DNA of 64,000 nucleotides from Pseudoxanthomonas composti (GTDB lineage: Bacteria > Pseudomonadota > Gammaproteobacteria > Xanthomonadales > Xanthomonadaceae), in contig NZ_SAWZ01000008.1 in the NCBI RefSeq assembly GCF_004122095.1, forward strand, positions 1-64,000. The letters are read 5' to 3'. The notes under the pieces are model-generated. The model did no database searches. It was not told the DNA's origin and saw only the letters and a list, made by a program, of their open reading frames with translations. Of this stretch, positions 13,126 to 62,000 are shown piece by piece (position 1 is the first letter of the stretch; every line of letters starts with the position of its first letter). Made by a program: the position numbers and the translations under genes.

Positions 13126-15111
13126 TCAGGCCGCGATCGGCATGCGCTGGCTGCGCACCAGGCTGCCGATGTCCACGATGAGGGCGACGCGGCCATCGCC
13201 GAGGATGGTGGCACCGGAGATGCCGGCCACACGGCGGTAGTTGCGTTCGATGTTCTTGACCACGACCTGCTGCTGTCCGAGCAGTTCGTCCACTTCCAGG
13301 GCGATCTTCTGGCCATCGCCTTCCACCACCACGATCAGCGGCTCGCCGCCTTCGCGCGGGGTATAGCCGTAATGGCTGGCCAGGGAGAGGATCGGCAGGT
13401 ACTCGCCGCGCACGCGCAGCACGCGCCCGTCCACGCCGACGGTGCCGATCTCGGCATCCTTGGGCTGGAGGGCTTCCAGCACATGGCTCAGCGGCAGGAT
13501 CAGCACTTCCTCGCCGATGGAGATGGTCATGCCGTCCAGGATCGCCAGGGTCAGCGGCAGGCGGATCAGCACGCGCGTGCCGTTGCCCGAGGCGCTTTCC
13601 AGCTGCACTTCGCCGCCCAGGGCCTGGATGTTGCGACGGACCACGTCCATGCCCACGCCGCGGCCTGACAGGTCGGTCACCGCCTCGGCGGTGGAGAAGC
13701 CCGGGGCGAAGATCAGGTCCCAGACCTGCGCATCGCTCGGGTTGTCCGGCACCTGGATCCCGCGCTCGGCGGCCTTGGCCAGGATGCGGTTGCGGTTGAG
13801 GCCGGCGCCGTCGTCGCTGACTTCGATGACGATGTGGCCGCCCTGGTGGGACGCGGCCAGGGTGATGGTGCCGGTCTCGTCCTTGCCCGCGGCGCGACGC
13901 GCTTCCGGCGATTCCAGGCCATGGTCGATGGAGTTGCGCACCAGGTGCACCAGCGGGTCGGCGATCTTCTCGATCAGGCCCTTGTCCAGCTCGGTGCCCT
14001 CGCCGATGGTGCGCAGACGGACCTGCTTGCCCAGGCGGGTGGACAGGTCGCGCACCAGGCGCGGGAAGCGGCGGAACACGGCATCCACCGGCAGCATGCG
14101 CACGCCGATCACCGCTTCCTGCAGGTCGCGGGTGTTGCGCTCCAGCTGTTCCAGGCCGGCCAGCAGGCGCTCGGCGTGAGTCGGGTCCAGGCCGCCGGAG
14201 ACCTGCTTGAGCATGGCCTGGGTGATGACCAGTTCGCCGACCAGATTGATCAGCGCATCGACCTTGTCCACGCTGACGCGGATGGACTCGGCCGCTTCGG
14301 CATGCGCGGCCGGGGTGCCGGTGCCGGGCACGGCGGCCAGCGCCGGCTTGTCGGCGGCGGCGGGCGCGGCGGCCTGGGCGGCGGGGGCGGCAGCTTCGGC
14401 CTTGACCAGGGCGCGCGGCTGGATGTCCAGTTCGCACTCGTCCTCGATCCAGGAGAACACGTCGGTCACCGCCGAACGCGGCACCTTGCCCAGCAGGCCC
14501 AGGTCCCAGGCGATGCAGGCCTGCAGCGGGTCCAGCTGCGCGAACGGCGGCAGTTTCTCCAGCTTGGCCTGCACCTCGATGGGGGCCAGGGCTTCCAGCT
14601 CGCGCAGGACGCGCAGCGGGTCGTTGCCGCTCATGAACAGCGACGGCGCCGGAGTGAAGGCGATCTGCCAGGCCTCCGGCACGTCTTCGGTTTTCTTGGC
14701 CGCGCCGGCGGCCGGCGCAGCGGCGCCGGAGAGCACGGCGTTCAAGCGCGCCTTGACCGCCTCGACCGCGGCCGGATCGGCCGGCTTGCCGGTCTCGCAT
14801 TCGCCCAGCAGGGCGCGCAAGGTATCCACCGAGCCGAGCATGGCGTCGATGGCGGTGGCTTCCAGCGGACGCTTGCCGGCACGGATCTCGTCCAGCAGCG
14901 TTTCCAGCAGATGGGTCATCGCCGCCACGGCGTCGAAGCCGAAGGTGGCCGCGCCGCCCTTGATCGAATGCGCCGCGCGGAACACCGAGTTGATCAGTTC
15001 CGGGTCATGGTTGCCGCCTTCCATCGACAGCAGGCCGCTCTCCATTGCATCGAGCCCTTCGCGGCTCTCTTCGAAGAAGGTGGCGTGGAAGCGTTGCAGG
15101 TCCATGCTCAT
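13126..15111 (-). CDS. cheA: Chemotaxis histidine kinase CheA (second system)
   Basis: 661 residues. HPt domain with phospho-accepting H48 in AAHSIKGGAATFGF; a central region (about 140-235) that could be P2 but is unlike the other CheA here; dimerisation helices (SIRVSVDKVDALINLVGEL); ATPase with HLVRNSIDHGLE (N box), DDGAGLNRNRI (G1), FAPGFSTAE (F box) and GRGVGMDVV (G2); C-terminal CheW-like regulatory domain (LTLAILDGMTISI to the end). All catalytic motifs are intact. The start at 15111 is chosen over M3 by convention. It follows a CheY-like gene (64 nt gap) and a STAS gene, and precedes a receptor. It lacks the DDEFE...LHG motif present in the CheA at 20724-22496. Confidence 0.95.
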   Translation of the reverse strand: MSMDLQRFHATFFEESREGLDAMESGLLSMEGGNHDPELINSVFRAAHSIKGGAATFGFDAVAAMTHLLETLLDEIRAGKRPLEATAIDAMLGSVDTLRALLGECETGKPADPAAVEAVKARLNAVLSGAAAPAAGAAKKTEDVPEAWQIAFTPAPSLFMSGNDPLRVLRELEALAPIEVQAKLEKLPPFAQLDPLQACIAWDLGLLGKVPRSAVTDVFSWIEDECELDIQPRALVKAEAAAPAAQAAAPAAADKPALAAVPGTGTPAAHAEAAESIRVSVDKVDALINLVGELVITQAMLKQVSGGLDPTHAERLLAGLEQLERNTRDLQEAVIGVRMLPVDAVFRRFPRLVRDLSTRLGKQVRLRTIGEGTELDKGLIEKIADPLVHLVRNSIDHGLESPEARRAAGKDETGTITLAASHQGGHIVIEVSDDGAGLNRNRILAKAAERGIQVPDNPSDAQVWDLIFAPGFSTAEAVTDLSGRGVGMDVVRRNIQALGGEVQLESASGNGTRVLIRLPLTLAILDGMTISIGEEVLILPLSHVLEALQPKDAEIGTVGVDGRVLRVRGEYLPILSLASHYGYTPREGGEPLIVVVEGDGQKIALEVDELLGQQQVVVKNIERNYRRVAGISGATILGDGRVALIVDIGSLVRSQRMPIAA

Positions 15112-16416: not shown

Positions 16417-17742
16417 TCAGCTCGGCCGTTCCAGCAGCGCGCAGGCGTCGAGCAGGATCACCGGGCCGCTGGCGTTGCGCTGGCGGCTCACGCCCAGGAA
16501 CATCGGATCGCCCGAGCGGCCGATGCGGGCGTGCTCGGGCGGTTCGATCTGGCCTTCGCGCAGGGTGATGACGTCATCCACCGCCGAGACCATCAGTCCC
16601 AGCGTGTCGCCCTGTTGTTCCAGCACGACGATGCGGGTGGCCGGCTCGTGGGTGATCGAGGTCAGCCCCAGACGGATGCCCAGGTCGATCACCGGCACCA
16701 CCAGGCCACGCAGGTTCATCACGCCCAGCATGGCGCGGCCGGTGCCGCGCATGGGCAGCAGCGGCACGGGCACCATCACTTCCTGCACCTTGAGCAGCTC
16801 CACCGCGTAGTGCTGGCCGCTGCAGCGCAGGTGCAGCCAGCGGCTGCTCTGCTCGGTGGGCGCGTGCTGCTTGGGTTCGGGCGTGGTGGACAGCGAAGGA
16901 TGCCAGGGCTGCGGCGCGGTGGAAGGCGCACGCGCGGCCGGGCGCGCGGGCACCGCGGCCGGGGTCGGCACCGCGCGGGCCACCGGGGCCGGTGCGACCG
17001 GTGCGGGCGCTGCGACCTCGGCGACGGCCGGCAGGGCGACGGCGCCCGGCGCGGCGGCGCCATGCAAGGTATCCAGCAGGGATTCGAATTCGTCGTCGGT
17101 GATCATGTCCGCCGGCACCGGCGCGACCACGATGCCCGGCGCCGCGGCAGGTGCCGGCGCGGGGCTGGCCTGGGCCACGGCCGGCAGCACGCCTGCGCCC
17201 GGTGCGGCGGCACCGTGCAGGGTGTCCAGCAGCGACTCGAACTCGTCGTCGGTGATCATGTCCGCAGGCAGCGGCGTGGCCACGATGCTCGGCGCAGGCG
17301 CAGGCGCAGAACTGGCCTGGGCGACGGCCGGCAACGCGCCCGCGCCCGGCGCGGCGGCGCCGTGCAGGGTGTCCAGCAGGGATTCGAATTCGTCGTCGGT
17401 GATCATGTCCGCGGGCAGCGGCGTGGCCACGATGGCGACCGCCGCGGGCGACGGTGCCGGGGCCTGCGGCGTGGTCGCCACCGGCGCCTGCGCTGCAGCC
17501 GGGGCCGGCACCGGCTCCGCTTCCACGAAGCTTTCCGGCGCGGCCACGGCGGTGGCCAGGGCCGGGGAAATCACGGCGCGCGGCTTGGGCTTCCTGGGCC
17601 GGGCCGGCTTGGCCGCGCGCGCCGGGGCGTCGGCCGCTGGTGCCGCCACGGCCACGGGCGCGGCGACGGCGCGCGGTGCCTCGACGACCGGCGAGCCGCC
17701 CAGCAGCGCATCCATGTATTCGTCGATCACCACGGCGTTCAC
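16417..17742 (-). CDS. parP: ParP-like CheW-domain coupling protein with triple motif repeat
   Basis: 441 residues. N-terminus VVIDEYMDALLGG, then a long Ala/Pro-rich linker, then three 49-51-residue repeats each containing ADMITDDEFESLLDTLHG (motifs near 115-124, 164-173, 215-224), and a C-terminal CheW-like domain (about 300-441, RWLHLRCSGQHYAVELLKVQEV). ParP proteins use such a domain to insert into chemosensory arrays and bind the ATPase ParC for polar placement. Start is GTG at 17742, with GGAGGAAA 5 nt upstream, overlapping the parC stop by 4 bp; the longer ATG frame would run back through parC. The CheA at 20724-22496 carries one copy of the repeat motif. Confidence 0.88.
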   Translation of the reverse strand: MNAVVIDEYMDALLGGSPVVEAPRAVAAPVAVAAPAADAPARAAKPARPRKPKPRAVISPALATAVAAPESFVEAEPVPAPAAAQAPVATTPQAPAPSPAAVAIVATPLPADMITDDEFESLLDTLHGAAAPGAGALPAVAQASSAPAPAPSIVATPLPADMITDDEFESLLDTLHGAAAPGAGVLPAVAQASPAPAPAAAPGIVVAPVPADMITDDEFESLLDTLHGAAAPGAVALPAVAEVAAPAPVAPAPVARAVPTPAAVPARPAARAPSTAPQPWHPSLSTTPEPKQHAPTEQSSRWLHLRCSGQHYAVELLKVQEVMVPVPLLPMRGTGRAMLGVMNLRGLVVPVIDLGIRLGLTSITHEPATRIVVLEQQGDTLGLMVSAVDDVITLREGQIEPPEHARIGRSGDPMFLGVSRQRNASGPVILLDACALLERPS

Positions 17743-18563
17743 GCGGTTTCCTCCACGTCGGCCGCGGCGTCGATGGCGGCCTCGCCCGGCGCCGGTTCCA
17801 GCACCTGGCCTTCGGCAGCCAGGATCCAGTCCAGCGCGTGGCGGTAGGCGCTCATCGCCCGGCCGGGCAGCACGCCGGGGTGCGCAGCCACCAGCTGGTC
17901 GGCATTGCTCAGGCGGGTATCGACCGGGATCGGCTGGTTCCAGACCTTGCCCTGGTACTCCTCCTGCATCTGCTGGAAGGTCTCGTTGCTGGCGCGGGTG
18001 CGGCGGTCGAACATGGTCGGCAGCACCGACACCGGCAGCGGACGCTTGCGCGAGCGCTCGACCATCTCGGCGGTGCGGCACATGCCGGCCAGGCCGTACA
18101 GCGCCAGCGGCTCGGTCTGGGTGGGCACGATCACGCGGTCGCAGGCGGCAAGCGCATTGATCATCAGCAGGCCCAGGGTGGGCGGGCAGTCCAGCAGGAT
18201 GGCGTCATGGGTCTGGCCGTGGCGCTGCAGGGCCTGCGACAAAGCCAGGCCCAGGCCCGGCTGGTTGGCGCTGCGGCGCTCCAGAGTGGCCAACGCGGTC
18301 TGCGCGCAGACGTAGTCCAGGTTGGGGACTTCGCTGTGGCGGGCCACTTCGGCCAGCTCCAGCGGCGGGGTGGCGAACAGATCGGCCACGCCCTGCGGCT
18401 GCGGCTCGGACGGCACGCCGAAGGCGCGCGTGAGCGAGGCATGCGGGTCCAGGTCGATCAGCAGCACCTTCTGTCCGCGCTCGGCCAGCGTCCGGCCCAG
18501 CGACAGGGTGGTGGTGGTCTTGCCCACGCCGCCCTTCTGGTTGGCGATTGCCCAGATACGCAT
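17739..18563 (-). CDS. parC: ParA-family ATPase, chemotaxis-array positioning ParC
   Basis: 274 residues. Deviant Walker A KGGVGKT (residues 10-16), Walker A' LLIDLDPHASLT, Walker B-like ILLDCPPTLGLL; a MinD/ParA-type ATPase without an N-terminal DNA-binding domain. Lying between motD and parP in a che cluster, it fits ParC, which segregates and anchors chemosensory arrays at the pole. Start ATG at 18563 overlaps the motD stop (TGATG); its own stop overlaps the GTG of parP. Tight packing suggests one motC-motD-parC-parP transcript, probably continuing from cheA. Confidence 0.9.
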   Translation of the reverse strand: MRIWAIANQKGGVGKTTTTLSLGRTLAERGQKVLLIDLDPHASLTRAFGVPSEPQPQGVADLFATPPLELAEVARHSEVPNLDYVCAQTALATLERRSANQPGLGLALSQALQRHGQTHDAILLDCPPTLGLLMINALAACDRVIVPTQTEPLALYGLAGMCRTAEMVERSRKRPLPVSVLPTMFDRRTRASNETFQQMQEEYQGKVWNQPIPVDTRLSNADQLVAAHPGVLPGRAMSAYRHALDWILAAEGQVLEPAPGEAAIDAAADVEETA

Positions 18564-19477
18564 CAGTTGACTCCTCGCGAGACGTTGGACACCGCGCCTG
18601 CCGCCGCGGTGGCGGTCGGTGCGGGCCCGGTAATGGGGGCCGGCGCGCCATCGGGCGCGGCCAGGATGATCAGGACCACCCGCCGGTTGCGGTTGCGCCC
18701 TTCCTCAGTGTTGTTGTCGGCACGGGCGCGGAATTCTCCATAGCCCACCACCGCCAGACGATCCGGGGTGATGCCGTTGCTCATGAACAGATGCACCACG
18801 CTGGCCGCGCGGGTGGCCGACAGCTCCCAGTTGGAGGGGAACTGCACGGTGTGGATCGGCTGGTTGTCGGTATAGCCTTCCACCCGCACCGGGTTGGGTG
18901 TGTCGGCCAGCACCGTGGCCAGCTTGGACAGCACGTCCTGCGCGCCGCGATCCAGCGTGGCCGAGCCGGCCGGGAACAGGATGTCGCTGTTGATCTCCAC
19001 TTCCAGCCACAGATCGCCCTGGCGTACGTTGACCAGCTGCCTGGCCACCAGCGAGGACAGCGCATCGGTCAGGCGGCCGGCGATGCCGCCGAGCTGCTGC
19101 TGCGCCTGCTGCACCATCTGCGGATCGCTGACCTGCATCGGCGAGCCCATGCGCAGGCGCGAGGCCAGCAGGGTCGGGTCGGTGACCAGGGCCGGGGCCG
19201 AGGAGCCGTTGCGGATGCCAGTCTTGATCGGCGTGGGCCGGTCGAAGTTGGAGCCCTGCACCTGCGAGTTGCCGACCTGCACCGGGTTGATGGTGCGCGG
19301 GGCGCCGCCGAAGGCCGCCGTCAAGGAATCGGCGACCACGCGGTACTTGCCCTCGTTGACCGAGGAAATGGCATACATGACCACGAAGAAGGCCAGCAGC
19401 AGCGTCATCAGGTCGGCATAGGGAATGGCCCAGGCCTCGTGGTTGACGTGATCTTCGTGCTTGCGTCTGCGCGCCAT
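18563..19477 (-). CDS. motD: Flagellar stator protein MotD (MotB family)
   Basis: 304 residues with start at 19477 (MARRRKHEDH), which has GGAG 9 nt upstream; the ATG at 19492 has none. One membrane helix (about 16-38) carries the proton-binding aspartate D22 in PYADLMTLL. A plug/linker follows, then a periplasmic OmpA-like peptidoglycan-binding domain (LFPAGSATLD, VEGYTDNQPI, LSATRAASVVHLF, GYGEFRA, NRRV). With MotC it forms the peptidoglycan-anchored stator. Placed 16 nt after motC. The MotC/MotD pair is the second stator type of pseudomonads and the usual one beside cheA in this group. Confidence 0.94.
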   Translation of the reverse strand: MARRRKHEDHVNHEAWAIPYADLMTLLLAFFVVMYAISSVNEGKYRVVADSLTAAFGGAPRTINPVQVGNSQVQGSNFDRPTPIKTGIRNGSSAPALVTDPTLLASRLRMGSPMQVSDPQMVQQAQQQLGGIAGRLTDALSSLVARQLVNVRQGDLWLEVEINSDILFPAGSATLDRGAQDVLSKLATVLADTPNPVRVEGYTDNQPIHTVQFPSNWELSATRAASVVHLFMSNGITPDRLAVVGYGEFRARADNNTEEGRNRNRRVVLIILAAPDGAPAPITGPAPTATAAAGAVSNVSRGVN

Positions 19478-19493
19478 GCCGTAGGCTCCCATC

Positions 19494-20234
19494 TCAGTGC
19501 AGGAAGCCGGCCAGCTTGGCCTCGATGTTGCGCGGGTTCTCGCCCTGAGCGATCGCGATCAGCCCTTCGACGACCATCTCGCGCTCGCCGGTGCGCGAGG
19601 CGATGACCGCCTTGAGCTTGGCCGCCATCGGCAGGAAGAACAGGTTGGCCGAGGCGATGCCGTAGATGGTGGCGGTGAATGCCGCGGCGATGCCGTGGCC
19701 GAGCTTGGACGGATCGCCCAGGTTCTTCATCACCGCGATCAGGCCGAACACCGCGCCGATGATGCCCAGGGTCGGCGCGTAGATGCCCATGCCCTCGAAG
19801 ACCTTGGCCGCGGCCAGGTCGTGGTGCTCCTGGCCTTCCAGGTCGATCTCCAGCATGCGCCGGATCGACTCGGGCTCCACGCCGTCCACCAGCATCTGCA
19901 GGCCCTTCTTCAGGAACGGGTCGTGCTGTTCGTTGACGTGCACTTCCAGGCCCAGCAGACCCTGGCGTCGGGCGGTGTTGGACCACTCCACGATCCGCGA
20001 GGCCACCACCTGGCGGTCGCTCGGCGGCGGCTTGACCACCCAGATCAGGATATTGAGCGCGCGCTTGAACACCGACGGCGGGGTATGCACGAAGATCGCG
20101 GCGATGGTGCCGACGATGACGATGACGAAGGCGGCCGAGGACCACAGCGATCCGATGCCCGCGCCCTTGAGAATGCTGCCGCCGACCAGAGCGGCCAGCG
20201 CGAGCAGGATTCCGAGGAGGCTGAGGATGTCCAT
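19494..20234 (-). CDS. motC: Flagellar stator protein MotC (MotA family)
   Basis: 246 residues, four membrane helices (about 1-20, 30-48, 145-170, 178-200), with the cytoplasmic loop holding the charged segment that meets FliG and the conserved PTLGIIGAVFGLIAVMKNL in the third helix region. Lacks the extra N-terminal residues of the MotA-only type. Forms the proton channel with MotD, encoded just downstream. It is separated from cheA by a 490-nt repeat-filled spacer (20235-20723) in which I see no strong promoter. Confidence 0.94.
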   Translation of the reverse strand: MDILSLLGILLALAALVGGSILKGAGIGSLWSSAAFVIVIVGTIAAIFVHTPPSVFKRALNILIWVVKPPPSDRQVVASRIVEWSNTARRQGLLGLEVHVNEQHDPFLKKGLQMLVDGVEPESIRRMLEIDLEGQEHHDLAAAKVFEGMGIYAPTLGIIGAVFGLIAVMKNLGDPSKLGHGIAAAFTATIYGIASANLFFLPMAAKLKAVIASRTGEREMVVEGLIAIAQGENPRNIEAKLAGFLH

Positions 20235-20310
20235 GGGGTCGGTATCGGCCGGGTCACGGCGGACTTGAACGGGGCGGGCCCTGGGGGTGATGCAAGGCTT
20301 GGGCCAGAAG

Positions 20311-20722
20311 GCGAGGAACGAGTGGAGAGGAACGAGGAACGAGTGGGGCGGAGCGAATGGATTGGCTCGCCCGCGATCTCAGGGGTCGCTTTGCGCAGGA
20401 CGAACGAGGAACGAGGAACGAGGAAACGAGAAACGAGAAACGAGAAACGAGAAACGAGTGGCGCGGACCGCGGCGCTCCCACTCGTTCCTCGTTCCTCTT
20501 CACTCGTTCCTGGCCAGACTGTCACGCCAAAACGGAGAGCGACAAAGGAACCAGGAGCCAGTGACGCGACCGAGGGGCGCTCTCACTCGTCCTCGTTCCT
20601 CTCCACTCGTTTCTGGCCAGACGGTCACGCCAAAAGGGAGAGCGACGAAGGAACAAGGAGCCAGTGACGCGACCGAGGAGCGCTCTCACTTGTTCCTCGT
20701 TCCTCTCCACTCGTTCCTCGCC
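20311..20722. repeat. GAACGAG short-repeat array A (behind cheA)
   Basis: Dozens of 7-bp units (GAACGAG/AAACGAG) on the plus strand at 20311-20458, and their complement (CTCGTTC) at 20482-20722, making long inverted arms. The array starts 2 nt after the cheA stop and fills the cheA-motC gap. It contains a 103-bp tandem duplication (20512-20614 and 20615-20717). No gene is supported in 20235-20723. Confidence 0.88.
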
Positions 20723-20723
20723 T

Positions 20724-22496
20724 TCAGGCCATGCTCTCCCGCAGCCCGTCCACATCCAGGATCATCGCCAGGCGACCGTCGCCGATCAGGGTGGCGCCGG
20801 CGTAGCCGGGCAGGCCGCGCAGGGCGCGCGGCAGGGGCTTGATCACCACTTCCTCGCGGCCGCGCACCTGGTCCACGATCAGGCCGAAGCGCGAGTCGCC
20901 CATCTGCAGCAGCACGATGGTGAACAGCGTCTCCGGCGGCACCTGCAGGCCCAGCCAGCCGCGCAGGTCCAGCAACGGCAGGGTGTGCGAGCGGCGGTCC
21001 AGCACCGGGCGGCCGTCGAACCACTTCAGGGTCTTTTCCGGCGCGTGCATCACTTCCTGCACGCGCGCCAGCGGCAAGGCGTAGACCGCCTCGCCGGCCT
21101 GCACCAGCAGGGTCGGCAGGATCGCCAGGGTCAGCGGCACGCGGATCAAAAAGCGGCTGCCGCGTCCGAGTTCGGACTGGATCTGGATCTGGCCGCCCAG
21201 CTCACGAATGCGCGATTGCACCACGTCCATGCCCACGCCACGGCCGGAGATGTCGGTGACCTCGGCCTTGGTGGAAAAGCCGGGCAGGAAGATCAGGTTG
21301 AGGCATTCGTCCGCGCTCAGGCGGGCGGCGGCCTCGGCATCGATCAGGCCCTTCTCGCGCGCCTTGGCGCGCAGGCGCTCGGGGTCGATGCCGGCGCCGT
21401 CGTCCTGCACTTCGATGGCCACATAATCGCCTTCCTGGCGCGCGGCCAGGCGCAGCCGGCCCGAGCGCGGCTTGCCGGAAGCCTCGCGCAGGCCCGGTGC
21501 CTCGATGCCGTGGTCGATGCCGTTGCGCACCAGGTGCACCAGCGGATCGGCCAGGGCCTCGACCAGGTTGCGGTCCAGCTCGGTCTCGGCGCCCACCAGC
21601 TCCAGTTCGACTTCCTTCTGCAGCGAGCGCGCCACATCGCGCGCCACCTTGGGAAAGCGCGAGAACACCTTGCCCACCGGCTGCATGCGCGTGCGCATGA
21701 CCGCCGACTGCAGGCGCGCGGTGGCCACGTCCAGCACGCCCACGGCGCGCTCCAGTTCCTCGTCGCGGATGCGGGTGCGCAGGGTCTTCAGGCGGTTACG
21801 CGCCAGCACCAGCTCGCCGATCAGGTTGACGATGTCGTCCAGCCGGCGCGTGTCCACGCGCACGGTGGTTTCCACCTCGGCGGCCTTGGCAGCCGGGACC
21901 GGGGACCGGGGACCGGGGACCGGGGCAGAAGCGGGAGCCGCTGCCTTTGCCGTTGCTTTCCCGGGTCCCGGCTGCAAGGGCTTGCTGCCGGGCGCAGCGG
22001 CGCCGTGCAGGCTGTCCAGCAGGTTCTCGAACTCGTCGTCGCTGATGTCGCCACTGGCCGCAGCCGCCGGCGCTGCCGTTGCCTTCCCGGGTCCCCGGTC
22101 CCCGGTCCCCGGTCCCGGCGATTCCAGCGCGAACTGGGCAATCAGCTCCGGCGGCGCATGCGGCGGTTCGGTGCCGTTGGACAGCGCGTCGAGCATGCCC
22201 TGCAGCCAGTCCAGCGAGCGCTGGGCCGCGTCGAAGTGGGCCGAGGTCAGTTGGCCCTGACCGGCACGCACGGTGCCCAGGGTCTCCTCGGCGGCATGGC
22301 ACAGGTTGACCATCGCGGTCACGCCCAAAAAGCCGGCGCCGCCCTTGAGGGTGTGGAAGCCGCGGAACACCGCGTTCAGCTGGTCGCGGTCCTCCGGCGA
22401 CTGTTCCAGCGCCACCAGCTGCTCGCCCAGGCGGTCCAGGATTTCCTGGGCCTCGACGATGAAGTCCGCTGCAATATCGGAAGAGACCGCGCTCAT
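20724..22496 (-). CDS. cheA: Chemotaxis histidine kinase CheA (flagellar system)
   Basis: 590 residues. HPt domain with H48 (GFHTLKGGAGFLG); linker 110-208 containing the motif SDDEFENLLDSLHGAAAPG (about 152-170) between Pro/Gly-rich stretches encoded by 7-bp DNA repeats; dimerisation helices (RRLDDIVNLIGELVLARN); ATPase with HLVRNGIDHGIE, DDGAGIDPERL, FLPGFSTKAE, GRGVGMDVV; CheW-like domain at the end. Order cheY-cheZ-cheA with 6 nt to cheZ. The linker has no recognisable CheY-binding P2 domain; its motif matches the triple repeat of the ParP-like protein, as expected for a region that contacts ParP/ParC. Confidence 0.95.
   Translation of the reverse strand: MSAVSSDIAADFIVEAQEILDRLGEQLVALEQSPEDRDQLNAVFRGFHTLKGGAGFLGVTAMVNLCHAAEETLGTVRAGQGQLTSAHFDAAQRSLDWLQGMLDALSNGTEPPHAPPELIAQFALESPGPGTGDRGPGKATAAPAAAASGDISDDEFENLLDSLHGAAAPGSKPLQPGPGKATAKAAAPASAPVPGPRSPVPAAKAAEVETTVRVDTRRLDDIVNLIGELVLARNRLKTLRTRIRDEELERAVGVLDVATARLQSAVMRTRMQPVGKVFSRFPKVARDVARSLQKEVELELVGAETELDRNLVEALADPLVHLVRNGIDHGIEAPGLREASGKPRSGRLRLAARQEGDYVAIEVQDDGAGIDPERLRAKAREKGLIDAEAAARLSADECLNLIFLPGFSTKAEVTDISGRGVGMDVVQSRIRELGGQIQIQSELGRGSRFLIRVPLTLAILPTLLVQAGEAVYALPLARVQEVMHAPEKTLKWFDGRPVLDRRSHTLPLLDLRGWLGLQVPPETLFTIVLLQMGDSRFGLIVDQVRGREEVVIKPLPRALRGLPGYAGATLIGDGRLAMILDVDGLRESMA
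21893..22119. repeat. GGGACCG heptamer repeats inside cheA
   Basis: GGGACCG repeats run at 21893-21926 on the plus strand, a short complement lies at 21957-21973, and complementary repeats at 22084-22119: an inverted pair around about 160 bp within the cheA linker. They are translated as Pro/Gly-rich peptides (VPGPRSPVP and SPGPGTGDRGPG) on either side of the DDEFE motif. The same repeat unit recurs in non-coding DNA at 61823-62000. Confidence 0.85.
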
Positions 22497-22502
22497 GTCG
22501 GT

Positions 22503-23123
22503 TTACAGACCCAGGTCGGAAAGCAGGGCGTCGGCGTCGTTCTGCGAGACGCCATGCCGGTCGATACCCGCCAGCGCGGGGCCGGCCAGGTGGTTGTCGG
22601 GGGTGACGCCGCGCTGCTGCGGCGGCAGGCCGAGTGCGGCAAAGCCCTCGTGCACGCGGCGCACGATGCCGGCCACGCGGCGCACGGTCTGGCCGGTGAT
22701 GTCCTGATAGCTCTGCGCCAGCGCCATCTCCTGCAGGTTCAGGCGCAGGGTGGCCAGCAGCTCCAGCTGGTGCGGCGCGTCCAGCCCGGTGCGCAGCTGT
22801 TCGCTGATCGCGCGCGACTGCTCGATCAGGTCCAGGGTGCGGTGGGTGGCCTGCTCGGTGGTGGTGACCACATGGTCCAGGCGCGCGCAGGCATCGTCCA
22901 GTTCGTTGGCGCCGGGGTGGTCGGCCGGCGGCAGCTCGCCCAGGGCCTGGGCCAGTTCGCGCGCCAGGCGGCTCAGGCCCTTGACCAGCGGCTGGGTGCG
23001 CGCGGCCGCCAGGGCGTCCACGTGCGAACGCCAGGTCGTTTCATCGCCCGCTTCCAACGCGACCAGGGCCTGTTGCAGCCGGTCGATCAGCGCGGCGCGC
23101 TCGGGAGCGGACAGGGCGCTCAT
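22503..23123 (-). CDS. cheZ: CheY-P phosphatase CheZ
   Basis: 206 residues, mostly long helices. The catalytic segment [15 protein letters not shown] carries the Asp and Gln used to dephosphorylate CheY-P, and the C-terminus [12 protein letters not shown] is the typical CheY-binding amphipathic peptide. The start at 23123 overlaps the cheY stop by 4 bp. Confirms that CheY 23120-23512 is the motor-switch CheY. Confidence 0.95.
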
Positions 23124-23512
23124 GCGGTGGCCGCCAGCCGTTCGAAGATCTTGCCCAGCTTCTCTTCCAGGGTCTGCGCGGTGAACGGCTTGATGATGTA
23201 GCCGTTCACGCCGTTCTGCGCGGCCTCGATGATCTGCTCGCGCTTGGCTTCGGCCGTGACCATCAGCACCGGCAGGGTCTTGAGCTTGTCGTCGGCGCGG
23301 ATGGCACGCAGCAGGTCGATGCCGGTCATGCCCGGCATGTTCCAGTCGGTCACCACGAAGTCGAACGGCTGCGTGTTCAGCGCCGCCAGCGCGGTGTGGC
23401 CATCGTCGGCTTCGGCCGTGTTGGTGAAGCCCAGGTCGTTGAGCAGGTTCTTGACGATGCGGCGCATCGTCGAGAAATCGTCGACGATCAGGATGCGCAT
23501 GTTCTTGTTCAC
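23120..23512 (-). CDS. cheY: Chemotaxis response regulator CheY
   Basis: 130 residues. Receiver domain with D11-D12, phosphorylation site D56 ([13 protein letters not shown]), switch T in MVTAEAKRE, aromatic in NGYIIKPF and the lysine before PF. These are the hallmarks of motor-binding CheY of the enterobacterial/pseudomonad type. Start [10 protein letters not shown] at 23512, 66 nt after fliA; overlaps cheZ. When phosphorylated by CheA it binds FliM/FliN to change rotation. Confidence 0.96.
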
Positions 23513-35170: not shown

Positions 35171-35505
35171 CAGCGCAGTCTCCGCACGCGTTCGGCCGGG
35201 CTGACCACGTCGGTCAGGCGTACGCCGAAGCGGTCGTTGATGACCACCACCTCGCCATGGGCGACCAGGGTGCCGTTGACGAACACGTCCAGCGGCTCGC
35301 CAGCGCCGCGCTCCAGCTCGATCACCGAGCCCTGGTTGAGCTGCAGCAGGTTGCGGATGGGCATGCGGGTGCGGCCGACTTCCAGGGTCAGCGCCACCGG
35401 CACGTCCAGGATCATGTCCAGGTTGAGGTCGTTGCCGGCCTGCGGGCCATCGGCGTGCAGGTCGTCGAAGGTCGCCGCGTCGGCGTTGGGGAAACTGGTG
35501 TTCAT
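35170..35505 (-). CDS. fliN: Flagellar switch protein FliN
   Basis: 111 residues from ATG 35505 (MNTSFPNAD), overlapping the fliM stop by 4 bp; the longer upstream frame is a shadow of fliM. C-terminal SpoA domain: DVPVALTLEVGRTRMPIRNLL, LDVFVNGTLVAHGEVVVINDRFGVRLTDVV in two halves. With FliM it forms the C ring and binds CheY-P. Confidence 0.96.
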   Translation of the reverse strand: MNTSFPNADAATFDDLHADGPQAGNDLNLDMILDVPVALTLEVGRTRMPIRNLLQLNQGSVIELERGAGEPLDVFVNGTLVAHGEVVVINDRFGVRLTDVVSPAERVRRLR

Positions 35506-36506
35506 GCGGTGGGATCCTTGGGCTGCGCTTTGGCGACGATGGTGCCGGGCGGATGGGTGGCGGTGATCTTGACGGCGTTGTAGCCGTTGGAAATGCCGAA
35601 CTCGCCGGTGAACAGTGGGATGTCCTCCACGCAGATCGGCACGTCCTTGGGCAGTTCGATGGGCAGCACGTCGCCCACCTTCAGATGGGTCAGCTGGCGC
35701 AGGTTGATGGTCTTGCGCGCCAGGACGGTGGACACGGTGACCTCGGACAGCTGCAGCTGCTCGCGCAGGGTGCTGTTCCAGCTTTCGTCGCGGTCCACGC
35801 GGTCGCTCTGGATGCCGGCATCGAGTAGCTCGCGGATCGGCTCCAGCATCGAATAGGGCAGGGTCACGTGGACCTCGCCGCCACCGCCGTCGAGCTCGAC
35901 GTGGAAGCGGCACACCACCACATACTCGCGCGGGGTGACGATGTTGGCGAAGTGCGGGTTGACCTCGGAATTGATGTACTCGAAATCCACCTCCAGCACC
36001 GGCGCCCAGGCTTCCTTCAGGTCGTTGAAGGTCTGCTTGAGCATCAGCTGGATGACGCGCATCTCGGTCGGGGTGAACTCGCGGCCTTCGATCTTGGCCG
36101 GGTAGCGCCCGTCGCCGCCGAAGAAGTTGTCCACCACCGTGTAGACCAGCTTGGGCTCGAACACGATCAGCCCGGTGCCGCGCAGCGGCTTGAGCTTGAT
36201 CAGGTTGAGGTTGGTCGGCACGTACAGCGAGTGCATGTAGTCGCCGAACTTGAGCAGGTCGATGCCGCGCACGGACAGGTCCGCCGAGCGGCGCAGCAGG
36301 TTGAACAGGCCGATGCGCCACAGGCGCACGAAGCGCTCGTTGACCATCTCCAGGGTCGGCATGCGCCCACGGATAATCCGGTCCTGGCTGGCGAAATCGT
36401 AGGACTGGGCCACGCTCGGATCGACCGGGGCGGCGGTTTCCACCGCGCCGGAATCGACGCCGTGCAAGAGCGCGTCGATTTCGTCCTGTGAGAGCAGGTC
36501 GCTCAT
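35502..36506 (-). CDS. fliM: Flagellar switch protein FliM
   Basis: 334 residues. N-terminal CheY-binding peptide LLSQDEIDALLHG, middle domain with GGDGRYP and ALSRLPA-like regions, and a C-terminal SpoA domain homologous to FliN. Full length. Start at 36506, 13 nt after fliL. Confidence 0.96.
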   Translation of the reverse strand: MSDLLSQDEIDALLHGVDSGAVETAAPVDPSVAQSYDFASQDRIIRGRMPTLEMVNERFVRLWRIGLFNLLRRSADLSVRGIDLLKFGDYMHSLYVPTNLNLIKLKPLRGTGLIVFEPKLVYTVVDNFFGGDGRYPAKIEGREFTPTEMRVIQLMLKQTFNDLKEAWAPVLEVDFEYINSEVNPHFANIVTPREYVVVCRFHVELDGGGGEVHVTLPYSMLEPIRELLDAGIQSDRVDRDESWNSTLREQLQLSEVTVSTVLARKTINLRQLTHLKVGDVLPIELPKDVPICVEDIPLFTGEFGISNGYNAVKITATHPPGTIVAKAQPKDPTA

Positions 36507-61822: not shown

Positions 61823-62000
61823 CCGGGACCGGGGACCGGGGACCGGGGACCCGGGAAAGCCAAAGCACGAAGCGCAGCCAGAGGAGATCCAGCGCAGAGC
61901 TAGCGCAGAGCCAACTCAGTGGCAGGGCGGTGCCGGCCTCGGCTTTCGATCTTGCTCCGGCCTTTCCCGGGTCCCCGGTCCCCGGTCCCGGGTCCCGGCC
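61823..62000. repeat. GGGACCG heptamer repeats behind the PilZ gene
   Basis: Forward repeats at 61823-61860 and reverse-complement repeats at 61961-62000 enclose about 100 bp with a short direct repeat (AGCGCAGAGC). The complement arm lies 3 nt from the PilZ stop codon. Same unit and same flanking word (CCCGGGAAAGC) as inside cheA. No gene is supported in 61747-62003. Confidence 0.86.

Follow-up and report, generated by a model that had tools for sequence, protein, structure and literature searches.

The 64,000-nucleotide stretch of Pseudoxanthomonas composti DNA analysed here (contig NZ_SAWZ01000008.1; hereafter the window) holds on its minus strand a flagellar chemotaxis cluster in the order cheY, cheZ, cheA, two further genes, parC and parP. 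This cluster raises the question of why one short peptide motif occurs three times in the product of parP (16417-17742, 441 aa) and once in that of cheA (20724-22496, 590 aa). The answer that we favour, with modest confidence, is that the motif is a CheY-docking helix that stands in for the P2 domain and can move between array proteins, a reading in which we infer CheY binding.

A recurring helix in ParP and CheA

The disordered, Pro/Ala-rich linker of ParP holds three 60-nt copies of the motif (ITDDEFESLLDTLHGAAAPG at 17344-17403, followed by copies at 17197-17256 and 17044-17103; all genes and protein features described here lie on the minus strand). Their start-to-start spacing of 147 and 153 nt, within a tandem array at 17016-17434 (period 147, 2.8 copies, 85% matches), agrees with the period of 147-153 bp given in an earlier reading of this DNA from its letters alone (the sequence-only reading). 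The single copy in CheA, ISDDEFENLLDSLHGAAAPG (21987-22046), lies between P1 and P3 and matches the reference ParP copy at 87% of 60 nt. The consensus is [IL][TSD][DE][DE]EFEALLDxLHG, and EFE..LD..G is near-invariant in 35 aligned copies. When a hidden Markov model (HMM) of 35 copies from other genomes was run on the window's genome, it returned the four known places, each at E ~1e-9, and no fifth at E<=1; the recurrence is therefore not due to chance, and the earlier count of three copies in ParP and one in the adjacent CheA holds. The second CheA of the window (13126-15111), which belongs to another class, has no motif by regular expression or profile, again as first reported.

AlphaFold2 models computed from relatives' alignments give ParP a helix at residues 3-13, lone helices at 116-127, 165-176 and 216-227, and then the CheW-like domain, and give CheA P1, a lone helix of modest confidence at 153-164, and P3-P5. 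The ParP motif helices sit in a low-confidence linker, their blocks having a predicted local distance difference test score (pLDDT) of 70-83, and the CheA helix is weaker (blocks 66 and 47). Every lone helix in the two models corresponds to one motif copy, so that the motif is predicted in both proteins to be an amphipathic helix within a flexible region.

Distribution among CheA proteins

The window CheA was searched against 185 genomes of the class, 126 of which matched at E <= 1e-40, and loci were read for the best-scoring CheA group, for other-class CheAs and for the surroundings of ParC in the family. A search of the family covered 149 genomes, 73 of them with ParC, and 60 ParC loci were read, which leave out, among others, the window's own and G165 (= L032; G and L numbers denote genomes and loci). 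The names used for the compared genomes (F6, Gammaproteobacteria, Xanthomonadaceae/Lysobacterales) are presumed, in part from named matches.

Complete P1-P3 linkers were obtained from 116 of 123 CheAs, and a linker-built profile finds the motif in 106 of them, in one to eight copies each: 64 of the 67 linkers of the class set, where three copies are commonest, and 42 of the 49 of the family set. Seven of the ten motif-free linkers belong to the family, and the remaining three (L088, L090, L101) to differently arranged clusters without CheZ. None of the 31 other-class CheAs has the motif by regular expression or profile. All 40 CheAs from named genomes that score above 500 bits carry one to four copies, including those of Vibrio, Photobacterium, Shewanella, Alteromonas, Pseudomonas and Stenotrophomonas, and three of the 40 that score lower have the motif (L266, L323 and L280, the last a weak betaproteobacterial variant). 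Four copies are present in 8/8 Pseudomonas/Stutzerimonas CheAs, the linker of L269 being otherwise Ala/Pro-rich. In 12 genomes searched whole, the motif profile matches at E < 0.01 only within the CheA of this class or within ParP, the latter limited to the window's genome and to G193, both of whose matches lie in ParP.

The last copy stands 28-134 residues ahead of P3 (median 50), and in 30 aligned CheAs the motif copies are the main conserved content of the P1-P3 linker. The linker motif is primarily a feature of CheA. Of the sequence-only reading, a short, conserved motif of variable copy number that is multivalent in ParP is supported. In the 1068-aa CheA of L081 the profile counts eight copies and the regular expression six; going by this protein, copy number can expand freely.

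The linker at the place of P2

In E. coli, CheA P2 is a folded domain that docks CheY and also serves CheB. No folded domain matching P2 or CheY-binding profiles was found in the motif-class CheAs: the 25 commonest of the 65 Pfam families that 67 such proteins match include neither of the two, the motif-class linker aligns with E. coli P2 in hhalign at a probability of only 0.4% (other class 14%), the linker profile has no PDB match at E<=10, and the model of the window CheA has no P2 fold between P1 and P3. The other-class CheAs, by contrast, have a conserved block at this place (WxIxFxP...GNDPxRxxREL...), whose hhalign match to E. coli P2 has an E value of 0.002 over 29 columns. E. coli P1-P2 chains match this block in a PDB search, the best stretch taking in the end of P1; chains that we take to be P2 alone match it at E ~0.25, and Pfam CheY-binding is found in 2/31 of these proteins. 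By such comparisons, kinship of the block to P2 is weakly supported. The absence of the motif from the second CheA of the window coincides with the presence of this P2-like block. A 2023 preprint survey states that more than half of CheAs are without the domain, and calls it dispensable in nature (PMC10542144).

Likeness to CheY-binding segments

The N-terminal segment of FliM, which carries the EIDALL motif, is described in PMC9126983 as binding phosphorylated CheY. The CheA-linker profile was compared with 29 FliMs from 30 genomes (one genome gave no match), and its best place was this CheY-binding segment, SQDEIDALLHG, in 29/29, with a per-position background tail of 7.6e-5 at the median. 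When set against profiles from 161 other conserved windows of two CheA alignments, the motif profile ranked first of 162 at the FliM site; its median site score was 11.3 bits and no control reached 11, with one control placing 27 of its 29 best matches there and the next 13. In the window, fliM (35502-36506) encodes the segment as LSQDEIDALLHG (36459-36494). Neither this likeness nor the lack of P2 figures in the sequence-only reading.

The C-terminal tail of CheZ also binds CheY. It is the best match of the profile in 42 of 109 cases, but this adds little, because 4 of the 161 controls do as well or better, and the tail was rejected as independent support. A reverse search with a FliM profile was likewise set aside: its best place is the linker in 91 of 116 CheAs, but other-class CheAs score as high elsewhere in the protein. 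A search for natural proteins that join a receiver domain to the motif, and could be folded as one chain, gave a single unconvincing match, a 129-aa CheY whose C-terminal end scores 11.3 bits.

Persistence without ParC and ParP

Eight genomes from six families, 91-100% complete, keep the motif in CheA without detectable ParC or ParP (G010, G001, G022, G170, G172, G026, G025 and G154; G022 and G170 share a genus, and G172 and G026 a family). The copies of G025 are divergent, and the cheA of G172 is split into two open reading frames (ORFs), the first holding two copies. ParC was checked in 16 genomes, most of them chosen for having no ParC seen near CheA; the best matches in the eight (2e-29 to 1e-35) are at the general ParA level, against 1.5e-56 or better in genomes with ParC. 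The ParP profile was built from alignment A3, which holds 28 sequences of 37 listed, loci without an ORF closely after ParC having given no candidate. It was run on 13 genomes, of which G034 and G072 belong to A3 and match by construction. Only CheW-sized ORFs were found in the eight (153-211 aa, 6.6e-6 to 5.9e-8), and ParP was recovered in 10 of 11 genomes that have it outside A3 (3.5e-75 to 6.9e-11). The motif is kept where neither protein is detected and therefore seems not to exist for ParP or ParC.

G156 (L035) and G148 (L098) have a ParC-like gene near CheA and no ParP by profile, and so either lack ParP beside their ParC or have one that is very divergent. A ParC-like gene (over 150 bits) also lies near this CheA in Pseudomonas/Stutzerimonas clusters (L269, L270, L272-L277). 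P. aeruginosa, which is not itself among the L269-L277 clusters, is said in PMC12410967 to have no related genes.

This distribution bears on the main rival to CheY docking, in which the motif is the LID of CheA, bound by the AIF domain of ParP, and the copies within ParP lead to self-binding and a multivalent lattice. The LID was reportedly defined by Ringgaard in 2014 and in a 2018 review. PMC5706961 and PMC7534058 place it between 'P2' and P3, bound by the ParP AIF domain with W305 needed, and it is described as confined to species that have both ParC and ParP. Since the motif copies are the linker's main conserved content, the published LID must overlap them, and the CheA of Vibrio sp. HA2012 has three. 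The motif is nevertheless present in the eight genomes without detectable orthologues. The pattern W[LMFY]xG, which fits W305 of V. cholerae ParP, the tryptophan required there to bind CheA, is found in 28/28 A3 ParPs but in only 1 of the 59 family ParPs (L190; three of the 59, L135, L137 and L148, are cut short or misread) and is absent from the AIF domain of the window's ParP (16420-16854), yet the CheA motif stays conserved in the family. FliM shares the pattern of the motif as well, yet AIF is not known to bind FliM. We regard the LID explanation as possible but rather unlikely, although CheY docking and LID binding could hold together.

Motif in CheA or in ParP

Within the family, ParP was read from 59 of the 60 loci (none at L181), and CheA was compared with ParP in 61 rows, 50 of them with a complete CheA linker. 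Five of the seven CheAs without the motif are accompanied by a ParP with two to four copies, against 5 of the 43 with the motif (Fisher p 0.002), or 5 of 41 once two rows of cut ParP are removed (p 0.0025); both values are inflated because kinship is ignored and the events are few. On a tree of the CheA core each trait changes four times, and absence from CheA goes with presence in ParP on two branches only. ParP copies occur in the window, in L151/L152, in L168/L162/L166/L180 and in L155/L160/L163; the CheAs of L166/L180, part of the third group, and of all of L155/L160/L163 have none. At L168 CheA and ParP have one copy each and at L162 CheA has one and ParP three, and these arrangements look like intermediate stages. 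The window CheA groups with another genus (L133, L134, L139, L140; 100/91) and not with L151 and L152 of its own genus, which hints at cluster transfer or a broad genus.

Presence in either subunit is the pattern expected if the motif brings something to the array, with the reservation that the events are few. The same pattern would also suit another shared partner of the array, be it CheB (which E. coli P2 also serves), CheV, CheZ, P1 or some polar factor (FlhF or FimV, for example). The likeness to the FliM segment points instead to CheY, and we consider docking of another shared partner improbable.

The case for CheY docking

If the motif is a CheY-docking helix, it would hold the response regulator CheY at the array by means of a short amphipathic helix, and one to several copies in the P1-P3 linker would replace P2 by imitating the N-terminal segment of FliM. 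The proposed ligand in the window is the product of the cluster's cheY (23120-23512; Pfam). ParP, too, would have gained copies within its disordered linker, both in the lineage of the window and on other branches of the family. Published work places ParP in the same core unit as CheA, and in the window's lineage ParP would add three CheY sites beside the kinase; on the two branches where CheA has no copy of its own, ParP would carry all of them. Together with CheY binding we infer its effect, which might be to speed up phosphotransfer and to keep a supply of CheY at the pole, and the direction in which the motif shifted.

CheY would fit all of the following: the motif lies where P2 would be, no P2 is detected there, it is like the FliM segment, and it persists without ParP. 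The motif may be a portable CheY docking site. In P. aeruginosa, CheY-eYFP overlaps CheA-CFP at the pole by published microscopy (PMC12410967), and Ortega et al. report that the P2-facing residues of CheY changed when a CheA of a different class adopted this type of CheY (PMC7184735); both observations fit CheY docking and fall short of proving binding.

Several results weigh on the other side. One control, from the P3 start of the other class, came close to the motif profile at the FliM site with its 27 of 29 best matches, neither the reverse FliM search nor the CheZ-tail match proved distinctive, and the motif HMM recovers neither FliM nor CheZ in the 12 whole genomes. The published ParP-binding LID is placed in the motif-bearing linker, and the profile behind the absence of ParP also gave only a CheW-sized match (3.7e-5) in G156, which has ParC, so that a very divergent ParP could be missed. 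The CheAs of L157 and L174 have no motif, and their ParPs have none either, only other repeats. Finally, a kinship-aware test of the exchange between CheA and ParP has 4 independent pairs (sign test p 1), in which ParP takes the same direction in 0.4 on average and the opposite one in none; it has no power and was set aside as support. Because this test shows how few the events are, our confidence in CheY docking was lowered slightly.

No CheY-docking helix of CheA or ParP was found in the literature searched, mostly by titles and abstract openings, and the strings EFEALLD, DEFEALL, EEFEALLD and DEFEALLDQLHG did not occur in the literature texts searched. In a wider reading, which we hold only tentatively and think somewhat less probable than its negation, P2-less CheAs at large have swapped a folded CheY-docking domain for lineage-specific helices in the P1-P3 linker, and on some branches of the family docking has moved to ParP, making the array anchor a CheY-recruiting subunit. 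The lineage motifs in such a scheme would be DEFEALLDxLHG in gamma, PDWxxLHxAVTG in beta, DYxxxSxxxVEAEIxRLL in Campylobacterota and RPGEVSLxELExxF in alpha. By eye, the second was noted in nine betaproteobacterial linkers (L280, L281, L288, L291, L296, L297, L299, L302, L314), the third in three Campylobacterota linkers (L294, L298, L306) and the fourth in three linkers of Alphaproteobacteria (L311, L321, L324). CheY docking, if true, would account for the way in which arrays of the Vibrio and Pseudomonas type hold CheY, would turn an obscure linker into a testable binding site, and would offer a possible case of a docking function passing between the subunits of a signalling complex through stages that are still extant.

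Other repeats and the N-terminal helix of ParP

The linkers of ParP in the family also hold other tandem helix repeats, among them those of the LLAEMDADPAF type (2-5 copies), the DELEAAFE type and the WDDLPDEVIYET type, carried by L138, L141-L143, L145-L147, L157-L159, L174, L188, L189, L144 and L149, and seem to change repeat type fast. The tandem helices in the ParPs of L157 and L174 (IDPGLLAELDSDPLF; DSDDLEAAFEAALNLP) perhaps, though not necessarily, serve the same function as the motif.

Such repeats, together with the tandem array of the window's ParP, would suit a helix for self-association of the SHOCT kind, or a neutral spacer that slippage has spread. SHOCT is the one other frequent Pfam signal in the linkers of the motif-class CheAs (53/67, best 3e-9). 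The near-invariance of EFE..LD..G means, however, that the motif is not neutral, the SHOCT match of the window's ParP spans 11 residues (positions 15-25 of the 28-position profile; E 0.017, 15.3 bits against a curated cut-off of 27), and the window CheA gives no SHOCT match at E<=0.1. Both variants are accordingly very improbable.

The sequence-only reading had taken IDEYMDALL as a shorter relative of the motif, joined both in a DE[FY]xxLL family and proposed that the copies form a multivalent tether binding ParC or the array. The peptide does open ParP, as the helix VIDEYMDALLGG (17695-17730), but it is a separate N-terminal helix, conserved in ParPs with the consensus ALxxYLDxLL, and a single family spanning helix and linker motif was rejected, since their distributions differ. 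Position in the class loci gave 43 ParP candidates, of which 38 from other families were counted after four misassigned and one in-family were removed; the helix is present in other families' ParPs, and 36 of the 38, although chosen beside ParC, have no linker match, while the threshold matches of the other two both fall at the first strand of the CheW-like domain. In V. cholerae, according to PMC5706961, it is the ParP N-terminus that binds ParC, and this region corresponds here to the distinct DEYMDALL helix. A tether to ParC is therefore unlikely, and the least probable explanation of all, for despite the similar look of the ParP N-terminus the motif is absent from those 36 linkers and kept in the CheA of genomes without ParC. 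The helix consensus ALxxYLDxLL itself resembles EIDALL.

Other features of the locus

Assignment of the 441-aa protein as ParP follows from its gene, directly 3' of parC (17739-18563; a ParA-like ATPase by Pfam), its N-terminal helix and its C-terminal CheW-like domain (Pfam CheW 2.8e-27), with which the AlphaFold2 model agrees. Translation starts at a GTG (17742) that overlaps the parC stop; a listed 554-aa ORF is longer because it extends upstream into parC. The two genes between cheA and parC resemble a motor pair as judged by eye. The cheZ gene lies at 22503-23123, and the C-terminal segment of its product (22506-22547) lines up with the end of the E. coli protein in 1kmi.

Inside cheA, inverted arrays of the 7-bp unit GGGACCG (21895-21925 and 22085-22116) flank the motif. 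Their 20-base pattern has 43 matches in the genome, some overlapping and often in plus and minus orientation ~80-200 bp apart, and a further element lies at 61825-61990; the cheA linker may have taken up a dispersed repeat, and slippage by 7-bp units would shift the cheA frame. Between cheA and the next genes (20300-20722) are short repeats of the AACGAGA type and 103-bp repeats.

Comparison with known systems

The motif resembles CheA P2 in its place between P1 and P3 and in its proposed role, but P2 is a folded domain and the motif a lone 12-residue helix. With the LID it shares the same linker, in the CheA of the ParC/ParP cluster; the LID is described only where ParC and ParP are present, whereas the motif is also found where neither is detected. 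SHOCT (PF09851) is a 28-position C-terminal domain, to which the motif-bearing proteins correspond only in part, as partial matches in the 53 CheAs and over positions 15-25 in ParP.

The motif is also like segments that bind CheY outside the array kinase. E. coli CheZ reads near its end SQDQVDDLLDSLG (1kmi), close to DDEFENLLDSLHG of CheA; its tail is C-terminal and, unlike the motif, has neither F nor HG. The FliM segment and the motif are both short acidic amphipathic helices in the same register, [LI][ST]x[DE]E[IF][DE]xLL. In the motor, FliM has a single copy, close to a free N-terminus, whereas the motif is internal, often repeated, has F for I followed by DxLHG, and belongs to array proteins. 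CheY-docking helices are already known in FliM and CheZ, and one in CheA or ParP would be a further variant.

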